Origin: Kribbella pittospori | GTDB lineage: Bacteria; Actinomycetota; Actinomycetes; Propionibacteriales; Kribbellaceae | Assembly (NCBI RefSeq): GCF_004331465.1 | Contig: NZ_SJKB01000001.1 | Span: 930,001 to 994,000, forward strand | Length of the DNA stretch: 64,000 bases | Direction: 5' to 3' | Notes under the pieces: model-generated | Databases searched by the model: none | Seen by the model: the letters and a program-made list of their open reading frames with translations, nothing else | What the model was told of the DNA's origin: nothing | Position numbers and translations under genes: made by a program | In this document: one piece after another, positions 20,056 through 47,582 of the stretch | How the letters are laid out: each line of letters begins with the position of its first letter | Numbering within the stretch: the first letter of the stretch is position 1

Positions 20056-21456
20056 GTGTCCGTTGATCCCAATCCCCTGTCCCGCCGCCAGTTCGTCAGC
20101 CGTGCCGCCGCGGCAGGCGTGGCGGTCAGCCTGGCCGGCTCGGTCGAGGCGCTGTACACCGCGCAGCCCGCGCTCGGCACCTCCGGCCCGAAGATCGGCT
20201 ACGGCCCGCTGATCGAGGACCCGGACGGCATGCTCGACCTGCCGCGTGGGTTCGACTACAAGATCCTGTCCCGCGAGGGCACCGTCCGGCCGGACGGACT
20301 GAAGATTCCGAGCCGGTTCGACGGCATGGGCGTGTTCCCGGACCGCAACGGCGGGACCCGACTGGTCCGCAACCACGAATGCAGCCCGACCTCCGTGATC
20401 AAGGTGGTCGCCCCGGCCGAGCGGACCTACGACCCTGCCGGCGCCGGCGGCACCAGCACGCTGGCGGTGGACCGGCACAACGGCGCCACCAAGGAGTTCG
20501 TCAGCCTCGGCGGTACTGCGATCAACTGCTCCGGCGGCCACACGCCGTGGCGCACCTGGCTGACCTGCGAGGAGACCGAGCTCAAGGCCGGCGAGAGCGG
20601 CTACACCAAGGACCACGGCTACATCTTCGAGGTCGACCCGTACGACGACCGCCGCAACGTGAACCCGACTCCGCTGAAGGAGATGGGCCGGTTCCAGCAC
20701 GAGGCGGTGGCCATCGACCCGTCCACCGGGATCGTGTACGAGACCGAGGACGCGTTCGTCGCGCCGCTCGGTGGGTTCTACCGGTTCCTGCCGAACCGTC
20801 CGCGCGGAGGCTGGGGAACGCTGCGGGCGGGCGGCGAACTGCAGGCCATGCACATCCCGGATCTGCCCGACCTGTCCGTCGTACAGGAGGCCGGCACGCT
20901 GTTCCACGGCGTGCAGTGGGTCAAGGTGCCGGACCCGTTGGCGACGACCGAGTCGGTCCGGGCGCAGGACTACGCCAAGCCGATCACCGGCGGCTACAAG
21001 CTCGAGGGCTGCTGGTGGGGAGAAAAGGACCGCTGCGTGTACTTCGTCTCGTCGTTCGCCCGGACCGAGCTCGGTCCCAAGGTGGACCACGACGGACAGG
21101 TGTGGCGGTACGACCCGCGGAAGGAGACGCTGCGCCTCGAAGTGATCTTCACCCGGCCGAAGCCCGGCTCGGACGATCCCGAGTTCGATGCCCCCGACAA
21201 CATCACGATGTCGCCGTACGGCGGTCTGATGCTGTGCGAGGACGGGCTCGGTGAGCAGCACATCCTCGGCACCACCGAGGACGGCCAGGTGTTCAAGTTC
21301 GCCCGCAACCGGGTGAACCTCGGCACGCCGGAGGAGCCGGAGTACGGCGAACTGTCCGGCGTCGGCTTCTCCGCCGACGGCCGGACGATGTTCTTCAACG
21401 TCTACAACCCCGGCATCACCTACGCCGTCACCGGCCCCTGGCGCCGCCGCCGCTGA
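20056..21456 (+). CDS. Tat-exported PhoX-family (DUF839) phosphatase
   Basis: A 466-aa protein with a twin-arginine signal peptide (LSRRQFVSRAAAAGVAVSLAG), so it is exported folded. The mature part has the DUF839/PhoX pattern: LVRNHECSP, CSGGHTPWRTWLTCEETE, GRFQHEAVAIDP and APDNITMSPYGGLMLCEDG. PhoX enzymes are calcium- and iron-dependent alkaline phosphatases. The GTG start has a GAGGAG ribosome binding site eight bases upstream. The PHO box upstream supports a phosphate-scavenging role. It could instead be one of the DUF839 members of unknown substrate. Confidence 0.85.
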   Translation: MSVDPNPLSRRQFVSRAAAAGVAVSLAGSVEALYTAQPALGTSGPKIGYGPLIEDPDGMLDLPRGFDYKILSREGTVRPDGLKIPSRFDGMGVFPDRNGGTRLVRNHECSPTSVIKVVAPAERTYDPAGAGGTSTLAVDRHNGATKEFVSLGGTAINCSGGHTPWRTWLTCEETELKAGESGYTKDHGYIFEVDPYDDRRNVNPTPLKEMGRFQHEAVAIDPSTGIVYETEDAFVAPLGGFYRFLPNRPRGGWGTLRAGGELQAMHIPDLPDLSVVQEAGTLFHGVQWVKVPDPLATTESVRAQDYAKPITGGYKLEGCWWGEKDRCVYFVSSFARTELGPKVDHDGQVWRYDPRKETLRLEVIFTRPKPGSDDPEFDAPDNITMSPYGGLMLCEDGLGEQHILGTTEDGQVFKFARNRVNLGTPEEPEYGELSGVGFSADGRTMFFNVYNPGITYAVTGPWRRRR

Positions 21457-21472
21457 ACTCCTGACTGAACAC

Positions 21473-21558
21473 ACACGAGGGGATATCCCCGGAAGGTGTG
21501 GGTTCTCCCCTCGTACAGGAGTAGAGAACCCACAACGGCAAGGGATATCCCCTCGTGT
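21473..21558. repeat. structured repeat, copy 2 (nested inverted repeats)
   Basis: The outer stem is a perfect 17-bp pairing of ACACGAGGGGATATCCC (21473-21489) with 21542-21558. The inner stem is a perfect 11-bp pairing of TGTGGGTTCTC (21497-21507) with 21524-21534. The inner arms, the ACCCACAAC flank and the ATCCCCTCG segment match copy 1 near 5.3 kb. It sits between the convergent ends of the phosphatase gene and the biosynthetic operon and lies only two bases from the last stop codon of the latter, so it probably terminates both. Confidence 0.75.
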
Positions 21559-21560
21559 TG

Positions 21561-22802
21561 TCAGGGGGAGGGGGTGATGTGGATGCCGGACTCCATGTCC
21601 AGGACCCGGTGGTAGTCGGCGTCGAGGGTGGCCGGGTCGCTGTGGATCAGGATGACCCAGGCCAGGCAGGTGAACAGGTCCACTGTCTCCGGTACGACGG
21701 CGTCCTCGTCGTACAGGATCTTCATCCAGTGGAACGACTTCAGCGACTCGATGTCGTCGAACACCTCGCGGTTGCTGAAGTACCCCTCCCGCGGTGCGAT
21801 GACGAAGATGCCGCGCAGGTGCTGGACCAGATCGAACCCGTCCCGCACCTCGCCGCGGACCCGGTGGGCCACCGTCCGCTTGATGTGGTTGTCGCCGGTG
21901 GCCAGATCACTGACCATCTGGTGGCCGCCGCCGGCCGGCCGGGCCGCGACCTCGATCAGCCGTGGTCCGTCCGGCGTCATCATCACCTCGACATGACCGC
22001 AGCCGACCCGGATGCCGACCGCGTCGAGTACGTCGCGGGTGTACGGCCAGAGCGCCTGCACCTCCGCGTCGTCCTCGGCCAGGAAGTCGATCCGCCGGTA
22101 GATGCCGATCTTGTCGCCCCGGCCGACCTTCGTGTAGCGGCAGACGTCGACCAGCGCGTGTTTCCCGTCCACGCTGTAGGTGTCGACCAGGTACTCCGTG
22201 CCTTCGGCGTACTCCTGGATCAGGACGGCGTCGTTGGTCAGCCCCATCTTGTTGGTCCGGCCAAGGACCCGGTCGAACCGCTCCCGCCAGTCGCCGTCCT
22301 CGAAGACGACGTAGACCTCGTCGCCGGCGGCGCTCTTCGGCGGCTTGATCACCAGCCGCTTGCCGAGCAGGTCGTTCTCCTTCAGCCACCGCTCCGCCTC
22401 GACCGGATCCGCGGTCAGGAACTGGCGTAACCGTGGCACACCCGCGGCCGCGAGCGCCTGCGCCATCTCCCACTTGTCCCGCCGTGCCGACGCCAGCTCC
22501 GGGACGTTGCCGGTGCCGGGCGCCAGGAGCCCGATCAGCCGGTCGCACAGCTCGACCCCGCTCTCCGCACCAGGCACCAGGTACTCCGGCTCGTAGTGCC
22601 GCAGTTCCTCAGCCAACGCCTGTACGTCGCCGGTGAAGTAGTGCACGTGTTCGAAGTCCTCCGGATGCCAGCTCGTCGTGTACGCCGGTGGTGGCTCGGA
22701 AGCACTGAGTACGGCGACCGGCAGCCGGCCCGCCTCGCGGAACGCGGCCGCATATTCCTGTCCCGTGGACAACGGGTCCACGATGATCGTGTAGTTACTC
22801 AT
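21561..22802 (-). CDS. ATP-grasp ligase (second of the cluster)
   Basis: A 413-aa ATP-grasp enzyme, expected to join a carboxylate (as acyl phosphate) to an amine. Visible: an N-terminal pre-ATP-grasp domain, RDKWEMAQALAAAGVP (about 108-123), the ATP-binding LVIKPPKSAAGDEVYVV (about 150-166), VLIQEYAEGTEYLVD, and the metal-binding VEVMMTPDGPRLIEVAARP (about 271-289). The metal-ligand loop has EVAARPAGG where most relatives have an E-x-N-x-R pattern; Asn is replaced by Ala, which may alter metal binding. It resembles L-amino-acid ligases of dipeptide antibiotics. It is the last gene of the operon, overlapping the exporter by eight bases, with a GGAGGA ribosome binding site. Confidence 0.88.
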   Translation of the reverse strand: MSNYTIIVDPLSTGQEYAAAFREAGRLPVAVLSASEPPPAYTTSWHPEDFEHVHYFTGDVQALAEELRHYEPEYLVPGAESGVELCDRLIGLLAPGTGNVPELASARRDKWEMAQALAAAGVPRLRQFLTADPVEAERWLKENDLLGKRLVIKPPKSAAGDEVYVVFEDGDWRERFDRVLGRTNKMGLTNDAVLIQEYAEGTEYLVDTYSVDGKHALVDVCRYTKVGRGDKIGIYRRIDFLAEDDAEVQALWPYTRDVLDAVGIRVGCGHVEVMMTPDGPRLIEVAARPAGGGHQMVSDLATGDNHIKRTVAHRVRGEVRDGFDLVQHLRGIFVIAPREGYFSNREVFDDIESLKSFHWMKILYDEDAVVPETVDLFTCLAWVILIHSDPATLDADYHRVLDMESGIHITPSP

Positions 22803-24051
22803 CCTGTCCTCCTACAAGCTCTGGCTCGGCGGTGCGGGTGGTGGTCTCCTCGGCGGTCGTGGGTGTCATCCCGAAGTACGCGAGGACGACGCCGATCCCG
22901 CCGGCCAGCCCGCACAACACCCAGACCTGGGTTCCGGACGTGTTCCAGATCCACACCCCGAGGAACGGGCCGAGGGCCGAACCGAGGCCGAACATCGCGT
23001 GCGCGGATCCGACGTACCGGCCGAGTAAGGGCTTCGGTGCGGCCATGCCCGGATACGCGAACATGGTCGGGCCGCCGATGATCTCGGCCAGCGTCCAGAG
23101 CAGGGTGCCGATCACGAAGATCGCCAACCCGCCGGGCAGTGCATAGAACGCGAGGCCGCCGCCGAGCAGTACGAATCCGGTCATCGCGACGACCCGGGCG
23201 GGCCGGTTCTGCACCACCTTCGTCACCAGCAACTCGCAGGTGATCACGACGAAGCCGTTCAGCGCGACGATCGCGCTGTACCACCAGGTCGACAGCCCGT
23301 CCGCCTTCATGTGCAGCGGCAGCACGGCCAGGTACTGCATGTAGATCGCCGCGTTGATGAACATGCACAGCAGGAACAGCATGTACTTGTAGTCCCGCAG
23401 TACGGCGACGTATCCACCGGCCGACGGCTGGTCCTCCGACGTCACTTCGACGGGAGCTGCGGATCGCTTCGGCAGCGCGACGATGGCCACGGCGGCGTAC
23501 GCCAGCGCCGCGACCGCTTCGCCGATGAACAGCAGGTTCCAGGACACCGCGACGAGGGCGGCGCCGATCAGCGGGGCTGCCGTCGTACCGAGGTTCATCG
23601 CCAGCCGGTAGACCGCGAAGATCATCACCTGGCGGTTCTTCGGCGTCAGTTCGGTCAGCAAGGCAGCGGATGCCGGGCGGTAGAACTGGCCGACCGCACC
23701 GGCCAGCGCGACCACGACGACCACGGCCGCGTAGCTCGGCACGTAGGCGATCGCGAGGACGAACCCCGCCATCCCGAACATGCTGATCATCACCGCGGCC
23801 CGCGGCCCGACCCGGTCCGACAGCGATCCACCGATGATCAGGCCGATCACCGAGCCGCCGCCGTACACGCCGAGCGCGGTGCCGGCCTGGACCGGCGTGA
23901 AGCCCTTCGAGGTGGTCAGGAACAGCACCAGGAAGACCTGCAGGAACCAGCCGAGCTTGTTCACGAAGACGCCGACCAGCAGCGCCTTCACCGGCACCGG
24001 AGCATCCCGGATGGTCTCCCAGATGCCGGTGCTCTCGTCGGTCGCCGTCAT
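22795..24051 (-). CDS. MFS transporter, probable product exporter
   Basis: A 418-aa major-facilitator protein with about 12 hydrophobic segments. The loop 2-3 motif GGSLSDRVGPRAAVM is clear, and a second-half counterpart is weaker, as in drug-efflux members. Its ATG shares ATGA with the upstream ATP-grasp gene and its end overlaps the downstream one, so it is an obligate member of the biosynthetic operon. The most likely role is export of, and self-protection from, the operon's product. The start at 24051 is chosen for the coupling; the longer in-frame extension upstream is antisense-like, Arg-rich and lies inside the ATP-grasp gene. Confidence 0.9.
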   Translation of the reverse strand: MTATDESTGIWETIRDAPVPVKALLVGVFVNKLGWFLQVFLVLFLTTSKGFTPVQAGTALGVYGGGSVIGLIIGGSLSDRVGPRAAVMISMFGMAGFVLAIAYVPSYAAVVVVVALAGAVGQFYRPASAALLTELTPKNRQVMIFAVYRLAMNLGTTAAPLIGAALVAVSWNLLFIGEAVAALAYAAVAIVALPKRSAAPVEVTSEDQPSAGGYVAVLRDYKYMLFLLCMFINAAIYMQYLAVLPLHMKADGLSTWWYSAIVALNGFVVITCELLVTKVVQNRPARVVAMTGFVLLGGGLAFYALPGGLAIFVIGTLLWTLAEIIGGPTMFAYPGMAAPKPLLGRYVGSAHAMFGLGSALGPFLGVWIWNTSGTQVWVLCGLAGGIGVVLAYFGMTPTTAEETTTRTAEPELVGGQDE

Positions 24052-25295
24052 GGCGTCGGCTCCTTCGGATGACCTGACCAGCGCAACGCCTTCTCCGCCG
24101 CGTCGAGTCCGGCGCGGCAGTCGTCCACCGTGGTGGCGACGGTCGTCGCGTAGGCGATCCGGCCCCACAGCGTGCCCGCCGGCGGGGGACTGGTCGTGGC
24201 GCCGGGCTCCATCAACGGCACCAGTTGGTCGATCGTGCCCGGCAGACCGTCCGCGTCGAAGCCGACGGAGTCGAGTACCGTATCGTCTTCGTCCACGTAG
24301 AAGAAGCGGACGCCGCCGACCATCGTGCGGTCCGGCAGCAGCAGGGGCTGACGCCCGCACGCGACAGCGGCCGCCGCAAGCCCCGGATCCACGCCGGTCG
24401 CCTGCAGACCGAGGTACGGGATCAGGTCGCCGCCGATCCGGGCATTGATCTCGATCAGCTTCGGTCCGTCGGCGGTGATCATGAGCTCGGTGTGCGTCAC
24501 GCCGTCGGTGAAGGCGATCGCCTTGTGTGCGTCGACGAGCACCTGCAGCAACTGGTCGTCGGCGAGCAACGGATCCGCCGCGTCCACGATGTGCCCGATC
24601 TCCTCGGCGTACGGCGGGTAGCCGATCTCCTTGCGGGCCAGGCAGAACGGCGTCACCTGGCCCTGGTAGATCGCCGCGTCGATGCTGATCTCGTAGCCGT
24701 CGGCGAACTCCTCGACCAGCACCTTGACGTCGTAGTGCGGCGCCTCCGGCACGGTCGTGTCGTGGGCGAAGGCCCAGTTCGCCGCGAGTTCGTCGGGTGA
24801 GTTCACCTTGACCACGCCGAGGCTGGCGGCGAGGGCGCGAGGCTTGAGGATCACCGGGTAGCCGAGGTCGCACGCGACGGCCAGTGCCTCGTCGACGGTG
24901 TCCACCAGGATCGACTTCGGCTGCGGGACGCCGTGCTCGGTGAGCGCCGTACGGGTCAGGTGCTTGTCGCGGCAGCGGTTCACCATCGCGACGTCACCGC
25001 CGGGCAGGCCCAGCGCTTCGGCGATGTGGGCGGTCTGCAGGATCCGTGCCTCGTCCCAGCAGAGCACGCCGTCGATCGCTTCCTTGTCGTTGAGTTCGTT
25101 CGCCGCGGCGACGAGCGCGTCGGCGTCGAGCGTGCTCTCCAGCACGGTCCAGTTCTCGATGTAGTCGGTCTCCCAGGTGGGCTCGGCGTGCAGGAACATG
25201 TGGATCCGGTACTGCGGTGCGATCGACCGCAGGATGTACTCACGGAACAGCCGCATGCCGGTGGCGACCACCAGCAGGTGAGGTCGTTCGTTCAT
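24048..25295 (-). CDS. ATP-grasp ligase (first of the cluster)
   Basis: A 415-aa ATP-grasp carboxylate-amine ligase. It shows an N-terminal alpha/beta domain, NRCRDKHLTRTALTEHGVPQP (about 106-126), the ATP-binding lysine in YPVILKPRALAASLGVVKV (about 146-164), and canonical metal ligands in ADGPKLIEINARIGGDLIPY (about 275-294). The family includes L-amino-acid ligases of the bacilysin type. The start ATG lies one base after the preceding stop, with a GGGAGG ribosome binding site six bases away. With the second ATP-grasp gene it could build a three-unit product, or the two could work on alternative amines. Substrates cannot be read from sequence. Confidence 0.9.
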   Translation of the reverse strand: MNERPHLLVVATGMRLFREYILRSIAPQYRIHMFLHAEPTWETDYIENWTVLESTLDADALVAAANELNDKEAIDGVLCWDEARILQTAHIAEALGLPGGDVAMVNRCRDKHLTRTALTEHGVPQPKSILVDTVDEALAVACDLGYPVILKPRALAASLGVVKVNSPDELAANWAFAHDTTVPEAPHYDVKVLVEEFADGYEISIDAAIYQGQVTPFCLARKEIGYPPYAEEIGHIVDAADPLLADDQLLQVLVDAHKAIAFTDGVTHTELMITADGPKLIEINARIGGDLIPYLGLQATGVDPGLAAAAVACGRQPLLLPDRTMVGGVRFFYVDEDDTVLDSVGFDADGLPGTIDQLVPLMEPGATTSPPPAGTLWGRIAYATTVATTVDDCRAGLDAAEKALRWSGHPKEPTP

Positions 25296-25296
25296 C

Positions 25297-25686
25297 TCAG
25301 GCCTCCCTGACCGGAGCGGGGATCTGCCGGATGGCACTGATCCCGGTGGTGCCGTCGGCGCGACGGAAGTGGTCCCTGATCCGGATGTTGCCTTGAGCAT
25401 CGAACTCGGGGACGCTGTGGCACTCGCCGCTGACCAGGTCGCCGGTCGCGGTGACCAGGCAGTACGCCGCATCGAACGAGCCGTCCGGCCGCAGCAACCC
25501 GACCAGCCGCCCACTGCGCAGCGTGCCGCCGGCGTAGAACTCCGCCCAGACCAGGTCGTCCTCGCGGTGATACTGCCCGTACGGCGCTCCGCCGGCCGGA
25601 TCGTCGACCTCGAGCCGGAACCACACCCCGTCGACGTCGGGGACCAGCGGTTCCGGGACTGCCGCGGTCACCACTGCACCGCGCAC
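25297..25686 (-). CDS. small conserved beta-rich protein of unknown function
   Basis: A 129-aa protein. After a ~20-residue lead it has YGQYHREDDLVWAEFYAGG, then GRLVGLLRPDGSFDAAY and SGECHSVPEFDAQGNIRI. This pattern (YH..G.LVWAE..GG, then a CHS.PE motif) is the one I recall from short proteins often labelled N-acetylglutamate synthase without evidence; no acetyltransferase motif is visible here. The GTG start overlaps the end of the oxidase-hydroxylase gene by 19 bases (GTGs at 25674 and 25671 are alternatives). Its place inside the operon suggests a binding or accessory role in the pathway, not a known reaction. Confidence 0.65.
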   Translation of the reverse strand: MRGAVVTAAVPEPLVPDVDGVWFRLEVDDPAGGAPYGQYHREDDLVWAEFYAGGTLRSGRLVGLLRPDGSFDAAYCLVTATGDLVSGECHSVPEFDAQGNIRIRDHFRRADGTTGISAIRQIPAPVREA

Positions 25687-28016
25687 AACTCGTCGGAGAT
25701 CGGATAGATCTCCCGCTCGAACATGGAGTTCAGCACGATCGCGGCCCGGACCGGCAGTTGCGTCAGTCCGGCGTTCGTCAGCCCGTGGCTGTACCGGCTC
25801 GCGTTGAACGTGTAGATCCGGTGCCCGTTCATGCCCTTCCAGCGCACCGAGTAATCCGGCTCGACCAGCAGTTCACCGTCGTCGTCGACCTCGATTCGCT
25901 CCCGCAGGTCGTCGTCGAACGGTGCCTCCACGTGCTCCCGTCCGGCCGCAACCACCACCTGCCGTACGACGTGCTCCTCCGGCGTTGAGGTCGTCGTACA
26001 GCACAGACGGATGTTGCCGTCGGCCAGCAGTTCGGATGTCCTGACGTCGCGGCCCGGCAGCAAGGTGACCGGGAAGCGCCCGAGCGTCAGCATGCCGTCG
26101 TAGTTGGCCTGGTACAGCGCCCGCAGCCCACCGGGGGTGATGGCATCGCCGCTGTAGCGGGAGTCGTCGATCATCTCGCGGCGCTTGCCGCGGTTCAGGC
26201 CCTGCAGGTACTCGATGTGGGACGGCCGGTAGAGCTCGTTGGCCATCGGCGAGTCATCGATGCTCCGGAACCACTGGTTCCGGCCGAGCCAGCGAACGTC
26301 GGTGAAGCCGGAGCCGAGCAGCCGCAGCACACACTCCAGTCCCGTCTGGCCGCCGCCGACAACCGCCGTCGGCGCTGCCGTGTCCAGCCCGGCCATCCGT
26401 ACGCCGAGTTCGTCGGCGATGAACGCACGTTCCACGGGCAGTTCGGTGATGTACGCCGGCCGGACCGGGCGCGTGCCCAGGCCGAGGACCAGGTGCTCGG
26501 AGACGGCCGCCGGAACACCGTCGACGCTGACCTCGAAGCCGTCGTCGGTGATGGAGATCGAGTCCACCCGGGAGGTGAAGTGCACCACGCCGAGGCGCTC
26601 GGTCGCCCAGGCCAGGTAGCGCTCGTACTCGATCCGGGGGAGCGAGTCGAACTGGGAGTTGATCAGCGCATAGAGCCGCCCGGAGGTGACCAGGTAGTTC
26701 AGGAACGTCAGCTCGTGCCGCGGGTCGACCAGCGACACCAGGTCCTTCATCCAGCCGGTCTGCATCCGCACCCCGGGGTAGAGCAGGGGCGTGTGCCAGC
26801 CGGTGCCCGGTCGGGCGTCGAACAGGGCGAGCGGTTCGGTGGTGACGTTCTGGTAGAGCGCCGCCAGCGAGAGGTTGGAGGGACCGGCCCCGATACCGAT
26901 GGTGTGGTAGCGGGGCGTTCCTCGCTGCGGGCCTGGTTCCGTGATGGTCATGCGCTTGTTCTCCGTCCGCGAAGTGGTGGTGCGCGATGTGCCGATCAGG
27001 TCGCTCGCGGCCGTCCGGCTTGCGGCCAGCGCGGTTTTCACGCTGCCCCCGGACCCACCGGTGAAGGTGTAGAGCCGATGTGAGCTGCCGAGCACCGACC
27101 AGAGGGTCAGGACCGGCGGATCGGCGTAACAGTCGGCGTTGCTGACCATCAGGTCGGGCGCCGACAGCTTGAGGTGTGGCAGCCGTTCGGCGGCGATCCG
27201 GACGGCCTGGTCGGCCAGGTCCGGGATCGGCCGGCTGCTGCCGGGAGTGACGGACCAGTGATGGGTGTCCACGCCGAGCAGCAACCGGCCGTCGGCGGTG
27301 GGCCGCCCGTACAGGTCGCTGGTCTCGTCGACGAACATCGTCGGCAGGGCACCGGTGACCCGGTAGGTGGCGACCTGGATTGCCTTCGTGCGATACGGCT
27401 GCGCGGGGAGTGCGCTGCCGGTGAGCAGTCCCGGCGTCCACGGTCCGGCCGCCACGACGACAACGTCGTACCGATGGCTGGACGCGGGGAGGCGACAGCT
27501 CACCGAGCCGTCCGGGTGCGGGACGAGCCGGAGTACTGGGCCGTTGAGGACGCGGCTTGTCGGGCCGTCTGCGAGTCGGTGGATTACGGCCGTCCGGAGT
27601 TGGTCCGGCCGGATGAAGCCGGCCCGCTTCTCGAGTACGCCGACCGTGCCGTCGGGCAGGCCGTGCCAGCCGCGGCGGCGGAGGTCGGCGCCGTCGACGA
27701 TCTCGGTCGAGCCCGGGTGGGCGTGTTCGACCTCAGCGACCGCAGCCTCGAGCCCGGCGTACGACGGCAACAGGTACGTGCAGCCGGTTTCGATGTAGCC
27801 GGCCTGTTCCTGCAGACCCTCGAACAACTCGGTCAGGCTCTCGATGGCCAGGCGTCGCTGGACCGGATGGGTCTCGAACCCGCGTACGCCGCCACCCGAC
27901 GCCGCGGTCGCATCCGTCCCAGTCGAACCGGTCACGAGATCGACCTCGACGTCCTCGCTGAGGCGCCAGGCCAGCAGGGCACCGGCGATGCCGGCTCCGA
28001 TGACGCAGACTCGCAT
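25668..28016 (-). CDS. fusion ORF: FAD amino-acid oxidase-like + lysine/ornithine N-hydroxylase
   Basis: One uninterrupted 782-codon ORF with two enzymes. Residues 1 to ~345 form a glycine oxidase/DAO-family flavoprotein (FAD motif VIGAGIAGALLAWRL at 5-19; C-terminal TGGSGGSVKTALAASRTA). Residues ~370-782 form an NADPH- and FAD-dependent side-chain N-monooxygenase of the IucD/SidA type: FAD motif IGIGAGPSN (373-381), WHTPLLYPGVRMQTGWMKDL (407-426), NADPH motif VVGGGQTG (552-559), and a C-terminal NASRYSHGLTNAGLTQLP (738-755). In known hydrazine pathways these are two proteins: the hydroxylase makes N-hydroxylysine or N-hydroxyornithine, and the oxidase cleaves the hydrazine adduct. An in-frame ATG (codon 356) with its own ribosome binding site may also give a free hydroxylase. 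The start lies four bases after the MetRS-like stop, with GGAG upstream. Confidence 0.9.
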   Translation of the reverse strand: MRVCVIGAGIAGALLAWRLSEDVEVDLVTGSTGTDATAASGGGVRGFETHPVQRRLAIESLTELFEGLQEQAGYIETGCTYLLPSYAGLEAAVAEVEHAHPGSTEIVDGADLRRRGWHGLPDGTVGVLEKRAGFIRPDQLRTAVIHRLADGPTSRVLNGPVLRLVPHPDGSVSCRLPASSHRYDVVVVAAGPWTPGLLTGSALPAQPYRTKAIQVATYRVTGALPTMFVDETSDLYGRPTADGRLLLGVDTHHWSVTPGSSRPIPDLADQAVRIAAERLPHLKLSAPDLMVSNADCYADPPVLTLWSVLGSSHRLYTFTGGSGGSVKTALAASRTAASDLIGTSRTTTSRTENKRMTITEPGPQRGTPRYHTIGIGAGPSNLSLAALYQNVTTEPLALFDARPGTGWHTPLLYPGVRMQTGWMKDLVSLVDPRHELTFLNYLVTSGRLYALINSQFDSLPRIEYERYLAWATERLGVVHFTSRVDSISITDDGFEVSVDGVPAAVSEHLVLGLGTRPVRPAYITELPVERAFIADELGVRMAGLDTAAPTAVVGGGQTGLECVLRLLGSGFTDVRWLGRNQWFRSIDDSPMANELYRPSHIEYLQGLNRGKRREMIDDSRYSGDAITPGGLRALYQANYDGMLTLGRFPVTLLPGRDVRTSELLADGNIRLCCTTTSTPEEHVVRQVVVAAGREHVEAPFDDDLRERIEVDDDGELLVEPDYSVRWKGMNGHRIYTFNASRYSHGLTNAGLTQLPVRAAIVLNSMFEREIYPISDELCAVQW
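26949..26965 (-). promoter_or_regulatory. internal ribosome binding site and in-frame ATG between fusion domains
   Basis: On the minus strand GGAG lies nine to ten bases before an in-frame ATG (codon 356, reading MTITEP) exactly where the hydroxylase domain begins. This could make a stand-alone ~427-aa hydroxylase in addition to the full fusion. It also looks like the relic of two genes joined by loss of the first stop codon. Confidence 0.55.
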
Positions 28017-28020
28017 CGCC

Positions 28021-29376
28021 CTACTCCTGTTCAGACCCGGTCAGCGCCACGCGCAGTGACCCGGTCTCCTGGACGCCGCCGGCCAGCAGCGCGAGCAGAC
28101 TGCGTACCGCCAGCGGTGGGTCGAATCCGTCCGGCCGCAAGGCGCTTTCTCCGCGGGCGAGTTCGATCGCGGCAAGGTCCGGATCGAGTGGCTCGGAAAC
28201 GCGGTGGACGCCGGCCAGCAATGGCCCGACGCGGTCGGCGAAGGCGCGGAAGGAATTGAAGCTGAAATCACTGCGGAAGCGGTCCGGCCGGTCCCAGGCC
28301 AGAAACAAGCGAACGATTGACGGGTCTTCGGTCCGGAGCAATTCCGTCGCACCGGTCCCGTGTTTCCGGCTGGTGGAGAATTTCTCTCCGGCGAACGTGT
28401 AGAACTCGTTCACCACCAGGCCGGAAACGGGCAGCCGGGCGATGCCGGCAGCGGCCCAGACGGCCGGCCAGTACAGCGCGTACCAGAACGCGTTGTCCAG
28501 GCCGAGGAAGTGCCACAGCGATCCGACCTGGTCGAGTGCGGCCAGGTACGCCGGCACATCCGCGGCCTCCGGATCGATGCCGCGGGCAACGGCGTACAGG
28601 TCGGAGAGGGCGATCTCGGTGTACGGGCCGATCCGCAGACCGGTGAGCGGGCCTTCTCCTTCGAGACCCCAGTTGGTGGGGTAGGCGAGCGCGATCTCCG
28701 GCAGTCCGGCCTGCAGGGTCCGGTCGATCAGGTCGCGGACGGCGGGCGGCAGCTCGGCGCGCAACCACATCGCGATCAGGGCTTCGCGGTGATCCTCCAT
28801 CCGCAGTACAGGCACCGTCGCGGCGAACGGACGCGGCTCGCCACCGCAGCGGCCGCAGACCGGATCGACCATGGTGTCGACCTGGGTCAGGCTGCCGCAT
28901 TGCTCACACGCGCCGCCGGCCGCGGGAGCCTTGCACTCGCCGCACAGGCCGCTCAGGTAGGACTCGTGCAGGGTCCGGCCGCAGTCCGCGCAGGCGTGCA
29001 GGGTGACCTCGCGCAACGGCGTCGCCCCGGAGGTGACGAGGTGGTTCATCAGTTGGCGGATGATCGGTCCGTGCGCGTCGCCGAGTGGATCGGTGAAGAC
29101 GTCGTACCCGATCCTGGCCAGGGCGTAGGTGTCCTTGATGTCGTCGCGGAACTCGGCGGTCATCACGCCGACCTCGACGCCTTCGCGCTCGGCCCGGGTC
29201 AGCACGTAGTTCTGGTGTACGTCGAGGCCGGTGGTGACCACGACGCGTTCACCGCGGGCCCGCGCGGCTCGGGCGGCAATGTCTGCCGCGAGGTAGGGAC
29301 CGGCCAGATGGCCGACGTGCAACGGGCCGTTGACGGTTGGCTGCGGGGAAGTGAGGACCGTGACCGGATCAGCCAT
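28021..29376 (-). CDS. methionyl-tRNA-synthetase-like enzyme, probable hydrazine synthetase subunit
   Basis: A 451-aa class I aminoacyl-tRNA-synthetase-like protein. The HIGH box is HVGH (20-23) and the KMSKS loop is KFSTS (332-336), so amino-acid adenylation is likely retained. Four CxxC pairs (129/132, 145/148, 157/160, 174/177) match the MetRS zinc-knuckle insert. Only ~115 residues follow the KMSKS loop, too few for the usual anticodon-binding bundle, so it is not a housekeeping MetRS. In s56-p1-type pathways such a domain, fused to a cupin, activates glycine for N-N bond formation with N-hydroxylysine. Here the cupin is a separate gene overlapping by eight bases (ATGGCTGA). Confidence 0.88.
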   Translation of the reverse strand: MADPVTVLTSPQPTVNGPLHVGHLAGPYLAADIAARAARARGERVVVTTGLDVHQNYVLTRAEREGVEVGVMTAEFRDDIKDTYALARIGYDVFTDPLGDAHGPIIRQLMNHLVTSGATPLREVTLHACADCGRTLHESYLSGLCGECKAPAAGGACEQCGSLTQVDTMVDPVCGRCGGEPRPFAATVPVLRMEDHREALIAMWLRAELPPAVRDLIDRTLQAGLPEIALAYPTNWGLEGEGPLTGLRIGPYTEIALSDLYAVARGIDPEAADVPAYLAALDQVGSLWHFLGLDNAFWYALYWPAVWAAAGIARLPVSGLVVNEFYTFAGEKFSTSRKHGTGATELLRTEDPSIVRLFLAWDRPDRFRSDFSFNSFRAFADRVGPLLAGVHRVSEPLDPDLAAIELARGESALRPDGFDPPLAVRSLLALLAGGVQETGSLRVALTGSEQE

Positions 29377-29722
29377 GGCCGGCCTCGGCGGTGATCGGCA
29401 TCCAATACGCGCTGAAGACGGTCAGTTCGGTGTCGGCCGACCGGTTCTGTACGACGTGCGCCTCCGTGCTGCTGAGCAGGAAGGCGTTGCCTTGGGGAAC
29501 CACGTGTTCGCGGCCGCCGACGACGACGTACGCCGTCCCCGCCACGACGACTGACAACTCGAGTTCGGGGTGCTGGTCGACCGGGCTCTCCGAACCCGGC
29601 GGAACGGAGTACCACATCGCCTGGAAGGGCAGGTCCCGCTCGAGTCCGTACTGCTCCCACCGGACCACCCGAAGGTCCTTCACGTACTGGTCGTCACCGG
29701 TGCTCAGATCGAAAGTGCGCAT
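29369..29722 (-). CDS. small cupin, probable N-N bond-forming partner
   Basis: A 117-aa single-domain cupin and first gene of the biosynthetic operon. Likely metal ligands are His51 (in VDQHPELELSVVVAGTA), Glu53 or Glu55, and His89 (in LLSSTEAHVVQN). This fits a beta-barrel with one metal but departs from the classical HxH motif. In the known Spb40-type enzymes the cupin domain converts the ester between an activated amino acid and an N-hydroxylated side chain into a hydrazine; there it is the N-terminal part of the MetRS protein. The ATG at 29722 has GGAGGG ten bases upstream. Start codons further upstream, as far as 29980, would run over the promoter region and into the neighbouring gene. 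Confidence 0.85.
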   Translation of the reverse strand: MRTFDLSTGDDQYVKDLRVVRWEQYGLERDLPFQAMWYSVPPGSESPVDQHPELELSVVVAGTAYVVVGGREHVVPQGNAFLLSSTEAHVVQNRSADTELTVFSAYWMPITAEAGHG

Positions 29723-29948
29723 GCTTCGCCACCCTCCGTAGCCGGCGCCAGGCGCGGCTGAAGAAGTTGAATGACAGCGGAATGAAGTACGGAACAACAC
29801 GCTGCGATCAGCCGTGGAACGAGCCCGCGCGACGCCACCAACGTCGGCTACGTGAAAAGCTCGGCGACCCCCCAGTCTCCGTGGCCGAAAATATAAGGAA
29901 GGTCGCGCTGCGAGTAAAGAGGAATACGCAGAGAAATTTCGCCGGGAA
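29723..29948. other. AT-richer intergenic region upstream of the biosynthetic operon
   Basis: 226 bp between the cupin start and the end of the ferritin-like gene. It is less GC-rich than its surroundings, especially 29885-29945, and carries the best promoter match in the window. It leaves a predicted 5' leader of about 160 bases before the cupin ATG, in which I see no known riboswitch or T-box signature. Plus-strand ORFs crossing it have no protein-like features. Confidence 0.55.
29890..29918 (-). promoter_or_regulatory. sigma-70-type promoter of the biosynthetic operon
   Basis: Minus strand: -35 TTTACT (29918-29913), 17-base spacer, -10 TATATT (29895-29890). The -10 differs from TATAAT at one position and the -35 from TTGACA at two. 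Transcription would start near 29883. It is the only clear promoter for the seven overlapping genes downstream. Confidence 0.55.
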
Positions 29949-30359
29949 TCAGACCGCGCCGGGGAACGCGACCGGCGCACCGCCCCAAGTGAGCTGGGCG
30001 CCGGCGTTCGCGAGCAGCCCGTTGACGGCGAAAGTCCGCACCGCGGGCTTGTCCGCCGACTCGACCAGATCGCCGTACACCGCCGCCAGCCGGCGCTCGA
30101 GCAGCAGGATCAGAGCGGCCGCGGTCGCCGCGTTCGTCACGGCCTGCGGCAGGTCGTACGCCGGTTCGGCCGCGGCCGGGGTCTCGCCCGCGGCAACCAC
30201 CAGTTGGCTGAGGCGGTCGCGGTTCAGGCGGTGCTGCTCGTAGGAATCGGTCGCCGACCGGAACCGGGCGCCGCTGAGCTTGCCGCCGGCAACGCCGATG
30301 CCGTACAGCGCGGCGTGCTCGCCGGCCAGCGCGGCCTGCAGGGCCTCCACCTCGGTCAC
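29949..30359 (-). CDS. ferritin-like DUF4439 protein
   Basis: A 136-aa all-helical protein. EALQAALAGEHAALYGIGVAGG at the start and ALILLLERRLAAVYGDLVE in the middle follow the four-helix ferritin-like DUF4439 pattern, with Glu/His positions that could bind metal. No enzymatic activity is established for the family. The ATG overlaps the upstream lipoprotein gene by four bases. The pair sits upstream of and divergent from rimP, as in many actinobacteria. Confidence 0.8.
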   Translation of the reverse strand: MTEVEALQAALAGEHAALYGIGVAGGKLSGARFRSATDSYEQHRLNRDRLSQLVVAAGETPAAAEPAYDLPQAVTNAATAAALILLLERRLAAVYGDLVESADKPAVRTFAVNGLLANAGAQLTWGGAPVAFPGAV

Positions 30360-46196: not shown

Positions 46197-47582
46197 ATGA
46201 CCACGACAACTACATCGGCAACACAAGCATTGGCCGGCGACTTCCGCGGTGACCTGGTGTCTCCGGGCGATCCGTCGTACGACGAGCAGCGGAAAGTCTG
46301 GAACGGATCGATCGATCGACGGCCCGCACTCATCGCCCGCTGCACCGGAGCCGCCGACATCCGGGCCGCGCTGGCGGTCGCTCGCCGGACCGGCCTGCAG
46401 GTGGCGGTCCGCGGCGGCGGCCACAGCTTCCCGGGTCACTCGACCTGCGACGGCGGCATCCTGATCGATCTCGCGCGGATGAAGGGGATCCGGGTCGATC
46501 CGGTGCGCCGTACCGCGCGTGCGCAGGCAGGTGTCCTGCTCGGCGAGCTGGACCGCGAGACACAGGCCTTCGGTCTGGCCACACCGTCCGGCATCGTCAC
46601 GCACACCGGGGTCGCCGGACTCACGCTCGGCGGCGGGATCGGCTGGCTGATGCGGAAGTACGGGCTGAGCATCGACAACCTGATCTCGGCCGACGTGATC
46701 ACCGCCGAGGGCGAGCTGGTGACCGCGAGTGAAGACGCCAACGGCGATCTGTTCTGGGGGATCCGGGGTGGCGGCGGGAACTTCGGCATCGTCACCGAGT
46801 TCGAGTTCCGGCTGCATCCGGTCGGGCCGATCATCTACGGCGGCCCGATCATGTGGCCGATGGAGAAGTCGCCGGACCTGATGCGGTTCTACCGCGACTG
46901 GATCACCGGCGTACCCGACGACCTCACCACCGCGGTGATGCATCGGTGGATCCCGCCGCTGCCGTCGATTCCGGCCGAACTGCACGGGCGCCCGGTGGTG
47001 GTCGTGCTCGCCTGCTACGCCGGTTCGGTCGAGGACGGCGAGCGCGTCGTGGCGCCGCTCAAGGCGTTCGCACCGCCGCTGCTGGACATGTGCGTGCCGA
47101 AGCCGTACGTCGATCTGCAGGCGATGTTCGACCCGAGCTTCCCGCACGGCCGGTGGTACTACATGCGGTCCTCGGACGTCGGCACGCTGTCCGACGACGT
47201 GATCGACATCGCCGCCGCGCGCGGGATGGCGATCAACTCGCCGTACACGTCGTACCCGATCTTCCAGCTCGGCGGCGCCATCTCCGGGGTGAGCCCGGAC
47301 AGTACTGCGTTCGGCGCGCGATCGAGCGGACACACGTTCAACTTCGTCGGCGTGACGCTCGGTCCGGACGGATTCGAGGAGCAGCGGCAGTGGGTCCGCG
47401 ACTCCTGGAAGGCACTCGAGCCGCATCAGTCCGGGGTGTACGTCAACTTCCTCAGCGACGAGGGCACCGACCGGATCCGGTCCGCGTACGGCGCGACGAC
47501 GTACGACCGGCTGAAGGACCTCAAACAGAAGTACGACCCGGGCAACCTCTTCCACCTGAACCAGAACATCAGGCCCCATTGA
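46197..47582 (+). CDS. BBE-type FAD-linked oxidase
   Basis: A 461-aa flavoprotein of the berberine-bridge-enzyme-like class. The FAD-linking His is in RGGGHSFPGHSTCDGG, FAD-binding segments are TGVAGLTLGGGIGWLMRKYGL and WGIRGGGGNFGIVTEFEF, and the BBE C-terminal motif is YDPGNLFHLNQNI. The cysteine that gives bicovalent FAD in many members is absent (GLATPSGIVTHTGVAGL), so a single His link is expected. Such enzymes oxidise sugars, alkaloids or polyketides; the substrate is unknown. It stands alone, with a hairpin over its ribosome binding site. Confidence 0.88.
   Translation: MTTTTTSATQALAGDFRGDLVSPGDPSYDEQRKVWNGSIDRRPALIARCTGAADIRAALAVARRTGLQVAVRGGGHSFPGHSTCDGGILIDLARMKGIRVDPVRRTARAQAGVLLGELDRETQAFGLATPSGIVTHTGVAGLTLGGGIGWLMRKYGLSIDNLISADVITAEGELVTASEDANGDLFWGIRGGGGNFGIVTEFEFRLHPVGPIIYGGPIMWPMEKSPDLMRFYRDWITGVPDDLTTAVMHRWIPPLPSIPAELHGRPVVVVLACYAGSVEDGERVVAPLKAFAPPLLDMCVPKPYVDLQAMFDPSFPHGRWYYMRSSDVGTLSDDVIDIAAARGMAINSPYTSYPIFQLGGAISGVSPDSTAFGARSSGHTFNFVGVTLGPDGFEEQRQWVRDSWKALEPHQSGVYVNFLSDEGTDRIRSAYGATTYDRLKDLKQKYDPGNLFHLNQNIRPH

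Follow-up and report, generated by a model that had tools for sequence, protein, structure and literature searches.

Organization and conservation of the operon

A compact operon of Kribbella pittospori raises the question of whether seven genes could suffice to form a hydrazine, build it into a small peptide and export the product without a carrier protein. The stretch of DNA analyzed, referred to here as the window, comprises 64,000 nt of assembly GCF_004331465.1 (contig NZ_SJKB01000001.1, positions 930,001–994,000, forward strand). The operon occupies positions 21561–29722 of the window, with all seven genes on the minus strand and adjacent genes either overlapping or separated by at most 4 bases. 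This compact one-strand layout, proposed in an earlier sequence-only reading, was reproduced exactly from the open reading frames and their translations, and the families named there were all matched: Cupin_2, tRNA-synt_1g, DAO with Lys_Orn_oxgnase, ATP-grasp_4 (twice) and MFS_1. Values of dN/dS against four Kribbella loci are 0.08–0.41 across all seven genes; together with conservation and synteny, they rule out chance open reading frames.

The only sigma-70-like match in positions 21400–30000 (0.6 expected) is TTTACT-17-TATATT at 29890–29918 on the minus strand, and this promoter-like block is conserved in nine aligned upstream regions. Just downstream, at 29866–29883 on the same strand, lies the 18-base element CACGGAGACTGGGGGGTC, which occurs as one exact copy each in 18 of the 19 operon-bearing Kribbella genomes and in none of the 19 operon-free genomes (38 searched). 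The two features are suggestive of the single promoter claimed earlier, and of a single transcript. The leader displays no folding signal (z = 1.15) and has no Rfam match, and an RNA element there was rejected on these grounds. At the opposite end, an inverted repeat with 40-base arms of 83% complementarity (21473–21558) separates the PhoX gene from the ATP-grasp 2 gene, which converge on it, and is a possible two-way terminator; the terminator scan gave only a five-pair match, at chance level.

The DAO–NMO fusion gene, used as a marker, was matched at full length in 19 of 38 Kribbella genomes. Complete reading of 15 of these 19 gave matches to all parts of the operon in every one, although the small gene of locus L033 is cut short and that of L131 is split into two matches. 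The gene-neighborhood comparison across actinobacteria suggested earlier bears the operon out, since Catelliglobosispora (L036) and Dactylosporangium (L045) show the same gene order. SARP/BTAD regulators lie upstream of both of these loci. Three Actinomadura loci (L053, L058 and L060) carry only ATP-grasp 1 and the MFS gene, divergent from the rest. The operon is located between NusA and PhoX in all 17 operon-bearing genomes in which a single contig spans both flanks, and it behaves as one unit, since DUF4439 and PhoX are directly adjacent in two operon-free genomes.

The predicted N–N bond-forming enzymes

The first gene (29722–29369, minus strand) encodes a standalone zinc-type cupin of 117 residues that is predicted to catalyze an N–N-forming rearrangement. 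All four zinc ligands of the RHS1 type are kept (Asp49, His51, Glu55 and His89), with the same spacing as Asp63, His65, Glu69 and His103 of RHS1, the mechanism of which has been described (PMC8664883). Hydrazine synthetases sometimes consist of two standalone proteins, and those of the RHS1 locus of Rhodococcus jostii RHA1 (pRHL1), which form N–N bonds, are a standalone zinc cupin and a standalone MetRS-like protein, as in the operon (PMC8664883); we recognized this locus (L122) by its Asp63 motif, and its MetRS-like protein is 31% identical to that of the window. In an alignment of 37 cupins, one from the window and 36 from other loci that gave such a match, the glutamate and both histidines are invariant, with the first ligand being Asp in 33 and His in four. 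The crystal structure 5j7m, which the PDB names for its fold alone as 'Cupin 2 conserved barrel domain protein', is identical in 114 of 114 aligned residues to the operon cupin of K. flavida (G009).

The second gene (29376–28021, minus strand) overlaps the cupin gene by 8 bases and encodes a MetRS-like protein of 451 residues, with tRNA-synt_1g (residues 7–377) as its sole Pfam match and the class I motifs HVGH and KFSTSR both present. It scores below every MetRS equivalog cut-off listed in NCBIfam, and stronger MetRS-family matches (469 and 346 bits) are found elsewhere in the genome. These scores argue against a translation enzyme and make tRNA charging, an objection raised in advance to a role in hydrazine formation, unlikely; the protein is instead predicted to activate an amino acid and form an ester independently of tRNA. 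In the MetRS tree (L062 and L063, on short contigs, were left out of the tree and the clade counts), the window protein falls in a clade apart from the fused s56-p1/triacsin/pyrazofurin type with support of 100/100, and the closest partly characterized relatives of this clade are probably albofungin-type enzymes. RHS uses Glu, and where it has Glu-Arg the window protein has Trp-Tyr, in a segment that presumably lines the amino-acid pocket in MetRS; this comparison speaks against Glu as the partner amino acid. Matsuda and co-workers are reported in a review to have identified eight residues that specify the amino acid of MetRS-like proteins.

After a gap of 4 bases follows a fusion protein of 782 residues (28016–25668, minus strand), with an FAD oxidase half (DAO, residues 2–337) and a flavin N-hydroxylase half (Lys_Orn_oxgnase, residues 370–692; NMO). 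The two halves share one open frame in all 19 Kribbella copies. Lys66 and Asn235 of the NMO part align with the pocket residues Lys107 and Asn293 of SidA, the meaning of which is established (PMC8009421; PMC7347517), and both are kept in all 26 loci of the clade with an NMO match (L097 was left out of the alignment), while the third pocket residue (Asn323 in SidA) is not recognizable in the window protein. Lys and Asn at these two positions are also common in the other clades and therefore point to amino-acid substrates generally and not to lysine specifically. The same genome encodes another hydroxylase next to an IucA/C-like gene; this protein, which we read as a DesB-like enzyme of the diamine type, has Ala and Leu at the two positions. 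The best-scoring solved structures are nevertheless diamine hydroxylases (142, 137 and 133 bits, against 99, 98 and 91 for lysine/ornithine enzymes). A tblastn search of plasmids gave, among the matches listed (60 of 2036 records), IucD, which is annotated as a lysine enzyme, at 29–31% identity over 97% of the query. A placement outside the amino-acid N-hydroxylases, considered earlier, thus has overall similarity on its side and the pocket residues against it, and we did not adopt a diamine hydroxylase as first choice.

N–N-forming machinery in the operon is well supported by the cupin ligands, the MetRS-like protein, the NMO pocket and the DAO half, as the sequence-only reading had it. The part of that reading that did not survive is the kinship with the s56-p1/triacsin/pyrazofurin fused type, as the MetRS clade indicates.

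The small PF26421 protein

The fourth gene (25671–25297, minus strand) overlaps the fusion gene by 4 bases. Alternative GTG starts are present at 25686, 25674 and 25671, of which the last was adopted; the nearest database copies have 124 residues. The product has no family match in the Pfam copy used. Described earlier only as a small protein, it now belongs to PF26421 and is predicted to form an eight-stranded barrel of the avidin type, with a weak Foldseek match to avidin (best E value of 1.2e-3, none below 0.001) at a sequence identity of ∼8%. PF26421 proteins are found in 31 of the 33 loci of the window MetRS clade and in none of the 43 other loci.

PF26421 also pairs with a MetRS-like paralog that lacks a cupin, NMO and DAO nearby. 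A 440-residue product encoded next to the paralogous MetRS (L040, 8455–9777) has no Pfam match and gave a pLDDT of 35 in single-sequence structure prediction; from its motifs, we read it as resembling a circularly permuted ATP-grasp protein.

Ligases, carrier proteins and a predicted exporter

The remaining genes encode ATP-grasp ligase 1 (25295–24048, 1 base after the small gene), an MFS transporter and predicted exporter (24051–22795, overlapping the ligase 1 gene by 4 bases) and ATP-grasp ligase 2 (22802–21561, overlapping the MFS gene by 8 bases), all on the minus strand; the family matches uphold the earlier placing of two such ligases and an MFS gene within the operon. The best PDB match of ligase 1 is the L-amino acid ligase BL00235 (3vot; 74.5 bits, residues 71–303). 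Ligase 2 belongs to the PRK07206 subfamily (503 bits, cut-off 302), described in NCBIfam solely as 'hypothetical protein', and is similar over its full length to an L-amino acid ligase in the PDB (30vh; 200 bits, residues 3–404). It resembles dapdiamide synthase, scoring 154 bits with the DdaF model. The kinship of ligase 2 with DdaF and the weak kinship of ligase 1 with BacD recall dapdiamide and bacilysin biosynthesis, although both ligases score below the respective cut-offs and the warhead chemistry of those compounds is different. An MFS pump is a further feature of both the bacilysin and the dapdiamide clusters. The MFS protein of the operon (MFS_1, 145 bits) lies below all 25 NCBIfam cut-offs shown and was therefore assigned no specific substrate.

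The sequence-only reading had also noted that no carrier protein is present. The window contains no PP-binding match, and the genome has only three, the nearest on the contig being ∼469 kb from the operon, with none within 440 kb; a distant NRPS or PKS may act from elsewhere.

Comparison with known systems

As in the operon, cupin and MetRS-like protein come from separate genes in the albofungin loci (abf orfDEF and abf6; afn8/9/18), where the FAD oxidase has a gene of its own too and a lysine-type NMO is also encoded (PMC9469721; PMC11705231); unlike the operon, they belong to a type II PKS pathway. The six albofungin-like loci compared here gave no ATP-grasp 1 or 2 match in the fetched stretches. 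The albofungin proteins share the MetRS clade of the operon if loci of the L051/L052 type are albofungin-like, which we judged by shared architecture only. The logic of NMO, cupin/MetRS and FAD oxidase is shared with the s56-p1, triacsin, azaserine and N-nitroglycine pathways (PMC11705231, PMC13274452 and PMC10445470), with the difference that cupin and MetRS are fused in those pathways and are separate, overlapping genes here. Azaserine-related pathways hold the hydrazone unit on carrier proteins (PMC13061610), whereas the operon has no carrier domain nearby. NRPS-free amide-bond formation by an ATP-grasp enzyme is reported for the dapdiamides (PMC12568646), and the ligases of the operon would be analogous. 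In agreement with the earlier statement, no described cluster of this composition was found in the open-licence literature (most subscription papers fall outside it), where no paper among the matches listed brings together hydrazine synthetase and Kribbella. For one strain that carries the operon, the published antiSMASH table does not include it.

Proposed pathway and alternatives

Gene order, families, residue conservation, the fusion, presence or absence at one site and the lack of nearby carrier domains were observed directly; from the families and residues we infer all steps of the following pathway. The NMO half would N-hydroxylate an amino acid, most likely L-lysine. The MetRS-like protein would adenylate a small neutral amino acid and transfer it, without tRNA, to the oxygen of the hydroxylamine, giving a labile ester that the zinc cupin would rearrange through Glu55 to create the N–N bond. 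The DAO half would then oxidize one C–N bond of the adduct to yield, most likely, an α-hydrazino acid such as hydrazinoacetic acid, and the avidin-fold protein may bind a labile or reactive intermediate. ATP-grasp ligases 1 and 2 would form one or two amide bonds, comparable to those of dapdiamide-type warhead peptides, and the MFS protein would export the small peptide, presumably containing a hydrazine or hydrazide. We assign a probability of about 0.55 to this reading of the operon as a complete, carrier-free pathway from an N-hydroxylysine-derived hydrazine through a hydrazino acid to an exported ATP-grasp peptide.

It is improbable that both C–N bonds of the adduct are cut, with free hydrazine released and then coupled to a carboxylic acid by the ATP-grasp enzymes in the role of hydrazide synthetases. 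The MetRS/cupin/DAO set is closest to albofungin-like loci, and a review (PMC11705231) describes Afn14 of the albofungin pathway as a hydrazine transferase acting on free hydrazine. However, the six albofungin-like loci (L051, L052, L054, L057, L059 and L061, of 78) have an additional BBE-type oxidase after the DAO match that operon-type loci lack, and the sole BBE match of the window is only 34% identical and ∼17 kb from the operon.

We likewise consider it unlikely that the DAO half cuts on the α-carbon side, as Apy10 does, to supply the ligases with 6-hydrazino-norleucine (N6-amino-lysine). Regiochemistry varies within the oxidase family, Spb39 and Apy10 cleaving opposite C–N sides (PMC11705231), and no result here favors either side.

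The ligases and MFS protein could instead serve self-protection or transport, the released hydrazino acid itself being the final product. ATP-grasp and MFS genes adjoin the azaserine hydrazine genes, and the authors thought that the ATP-grasp protein AzsJ may not be involved (PMC10445470); the reduced Actinomadura loci fit this account as well. The retention of two different ligases in the operon across genera, both under purifying selection (dN/dS of 0.13–0.19), makes it a quite improbable one. Finally, a diamine substrate (cadaverine or putrescine), which would leave a diamine arm on the hydrazine, is very improbable despite the structural matches given above, considering the pocket residues, the IucD matches and the close relationship of diamine hydroxylases to E. 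coli-type lysine enzymes in any case (PMC7347517).

The carrier-free peptide pathway can be carried further, to an idea that we hold to be rather doubtful: the operon would be a movable 8 kb route to hydrazine-warhead peptides, free of ribosome, NRPS, PKS and carrier, in which PF26421 would be a third, previously unrecognized component of a distinct clade of hydrazine synthetases, keeping hold of the labile aminoacyl-hydroxylamine ester, or of the hydrazine once released, as it passes among MetRS-like protein, cupin and ligases. If this is true, PF26421 with the MetRS-like paralog that lacks cupin, NMO and DAO would mark a second system of tRNA-free amino-acid activation.

The analysis ties PF26421, a little-known family, to one clade of hydrazine synthetases and gives a probable function to 5j7m. 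With its natural hydroxylase–oxidase fusion, the operon offers a compact enzyme set for biocatalysis, and the proposed pathway would extend the known routes to N–N-bonded peptides by a minimal one of seven genes that dispenses with an assembly line.

Organization and conservation of the operon

The sequence-only reading placed a seven-gene operon at window 21561–29722 (window, C11:930001–994000 of a 9.49 Mb Kribbella-type genome), and open reading frames and translations confirm it exactly, on the minus strand and with neighbouring genes overlapping or at most four bases apart. The Pfam families are, in order, Cupin_2, tRNA-synt_1g (MetRS-like protein), DAO and Lys_Orn_oxgnase in one frame (an FAD oxidase fused to a flavin N-hydroxylase, NMO), a small protein without a match, ATP-grasp_4 (ligase 1), MFS_1 and ATP-grasp_4 (ligase 2). 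Purifying selection acts on each of the seven genes (dN/dS of 0.08–0.41 against four Kribbella loci). The full-length DAO–NMO fusion forms a single stop-free frame in 19 of the 38 Kribbella genomes searched, among which three further matches cover the NMO part alone (33–36%). Full reading of 15 of these genomes (G001, G004, G024 and G037 lie outside this set) gave matches to every operon part in all 15, with the small gene broken in L033 and L131. Identity to the window reaches 98% for the DAO–NMO protein of G006 and 95% for the MetRS-like protein of Kribbella sp. NBC_00889.

An 18-base element at window 29866–29883, just 3′ of the sole promoter-like match, is present as a single, unchanged copy per genome in 18 of the 19 operon genomes; all 19 operon-free genomes lack it, and no exact match lies elsewhere in the 38. 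It is a possible operator or leader element. The PhoX and ATP-grasp 2 genes converge on a large imperfect inverted repeat with 40-base arms (window 21473–21558) that separates them. In the nearest relative, K. capetownensis (L033), the small gene encodes only 49 residues and the MetRS-like gene is shortened (416 residues in databases), owing to either decay or assembly error; the remaining operon genes are 95–99% identical to those of the window.

The operon lies between NusA and PhoX in all 17 operon genomes with both genes on one contig, with a NusA–PhoX distance of 9.7–20.3 kb. PhoX is matched in 13 operon-free genomes, where this gap measures 1.64–1.78 kb (seven genomes) or 2.2–6.3 kb (six), and eight operon-free site stretches examined gave no match to operon proteins at E ≤ 1e-5. 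The whole cassette is missing in G016 and G025, since their DUF4439 and PhoX matches end five bases apart. In the longest operon-free gaps (G007, G023, G029 and G030; L123–L126) the DUF4439–PhoX site is filled by other genes. From their sequences we take those of L123/L124 to encode a ROK-like regulator, a solute-binding-like lipoprotein and a pair of permease-like proteins, and those of L125/L126 to include a sigma-factor-like gene among others. The site looks like a place of cassette exchange.

The predicted hydrazine synthetase

In the pathway described by Zhao et al. (PMC8664883), a MetRS-like protein or domain converts N6-hydroxylysine to an unstable aminoacyl ester in a tRNA-independent step, and a zinc cupin rearranges this ester to give the N–N bond; Asp63, His65, Glu69 and His103 are reported as essential in the standalone cupin RHS1, whose locus (L122) we recognized through the Asp63 motif. 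Asp49, His51, Glu55 and His89 of the window's cupin have the same spacing. Among the listed loci, an alignment of 37 cupins shows no variation at the Glu or at either His, and the first ligand is Asp in 33 and His in four. The best structure match (PDB entry 5j7m; 185.8 bits) shares all 114 aligned residues with the operon cupin of K. flavida DSM 17836 (G009).

The MetRS-like protein carries the motifs HVGH and KFSTSR, and tRNA-synt_1g is its sole Pfam match. It scores below each MetRS equivalog cutoff listed (best 161 versus a cutoff of 587), and two MetRS-family matches elsewhere in the genome are stronger. A tree of 80 MetRS-like proteins, in which deep forks have weak support and some branches are flagged as long, places it in a clade of 35 (the window, L029–L061 and L119; support 100/100). 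Loci outside the clade include cupin–MetRS fusions of 676–720 residues; L054, inside it, likewise reads as such a fusion.

Albofungin genes are described as comprising a cupin, a tRNA synthetase, an FAD oxidoreductase and a lysine monooxygenase (PMC9469721), and a review lists separate MetRS-like and cupin genes and a hydrazine transferase (PMC11705231). Loci of matching make-up sit within the window's clade. The six loci that we call albofungin-like share an oxidase (60–74% identical to that of L051) that from its sequence we take to be BBE-type, and this type is absent at E ≤ 1e-15 from the other 72 listed loci; because of this absence, we infer that the present pathway would end at a hydrazino acid. 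A BBE-type FAD oxidase match at window 46272–47576, ∼17 kb from the operon and 34% identical to those of the albofungin-like loci, is probably unrelated to it.

Hydroxylase substrate

Among solved structures, the top three matches of the NMO are diamine hydroxylases (142–133 bits), followed by lysine and ornithine enzymes (99–91 bits); 5o8p is labelled a lysine enzyme in the match list, and PMC7347517 gives its substrate as cadaverine. The pocket residues point away from this ranking. SidA binds ornithine through Lys107, Asn293, Asn323 and Ser469, equivalents of which are described as missing in DesB (PMC8009421), and its K107A variant is reported to abolish hydroxylation (PMC7347517). Lys and Asn occupy the first two of these positions in the window and, among the listed loci, in each of the 26 from the clade where the NMO is matched; the Asn323 equivalent is not recognizable in the window's alignment. 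Most listed NMOs of other clades also keep Lys and Asn, with Arg or Glu in some, and the hydroxylase adjoining an IucA/C-like gene in the window's own genome has Ala and Leu. The predicted substrate is an amino acid, most likely lysine.

Predicted ligases and export

Ligase 2 belongs to PRK07206, scoring above the cutoff, resembles dapdiamide A synthase below that model's cutoff and matches an L-amino acid ligase structure with 200 bits; ligase 1 resembles the L-amino acid ligase BL00235 (74.5 bits). The proposed lack of a carrier protein at the operon is borne out, with no PP-binding match in the 64 kb window and only three in the whole genome. ATP-grasp enzymes are described as taking part in dapdiamides and similar NRPS-free warhead peptides (PMC12568646). 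By description, the azaserine cluster likewise has an ATP-grasp gene (azsJ) and an MFS gene (azsK) adjoining its hydrazine genes; its authors considered that azsJ may not be involved (PMC10445470). ATP-grasp matches also occur near MetRS-like genes of other clades (E ≤ 1e-6; ligase 1 in 14 and ligase 2 in five of 43 listed loci), so that a combination of this general kind extends beyond the window's clade.

Distribution and related loci

The gene-neighbourhood comparison covered at least 78 loci gathered with the MetRS-like profile. All eight domains are matched in 13 of the listed 78 (L029–L036, L038, L043, L045, L055 and L056), ten of which keep the operon order on one strand, including Catelliglobosispora koreensis L036, where DAO and NMO are separate genes, and Dactylosporangium vinaceum L045. 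The genes are rearranged in L055/L056, and the MFS match of L043 lies ∼8.5 kb from the others. Both L036 and L045 have a SARP/BTAD regulator upstream on the opposite strand and no PKS or NRPS among the ten neighbouring genes tested. The clade is rare: in an even sample of 394 genomes of the class, two, one being the window's own, gave matches at E ≤ 1e-70.

The window's own genome encodes a second MetRS-like protein of this clade (L119; C3:157544–158839; 54–55% identical), followed by a relative of the small protein, with another MetRS-family gene (L117) within 10 kb. Similar pairs occur in L039–L042 and L047, five loci with no cupin, NMO or DAO matches; in four of them a conserved 440-residue gene, presumably from its motifs a circularly permuted ATP-grasp protein, is next upstream, on the opposite strand in L047. 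Seven Streptomyces loci (L089, L094, L096, L098, L102, L105 and L106) have two NMO and two ATP-grasp matches upstream of a MetRS-like protein, a predicted further hydrazine-synthetase/ATP-grasp combination. Outside actinobacteria, Vibrio penaeicida (L073) has a MetRS-like protein, an NMO match and an ATP-grasp match 35% identical to ligase 2 within ∼8 kb. Two metagenome-assembled genomes (L037 and L044) combine the clade's MetRS-like protein with a ligase 1 relative (58–61%) and a distant NMO (26–27%) beside another cupin, L037 additionally with an argininosuccinate-lyase-like gene; they would represent a related type of cluster that is larger.

In Kribbella sp. CA-293567 (G028) the fusion gene lies at 4,677,721–4,680,099, which none of the 19 antiSMASH regions in Table 1 of PMC9962454 overlaps; the coordinates run the same way as in that table, because the C domains located here fit its NRPS regions 6, 10 and 13. 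As far as our literature searches reach, they turned up no published cluster so composed, in line with the earlier reading. The chemistry of N–N formation is already known; new, within the same reach, is its machinery joined with two ATP-grasp ligases, a fused hydroxylase–oxidase and a partner with a predicted avidin fold.
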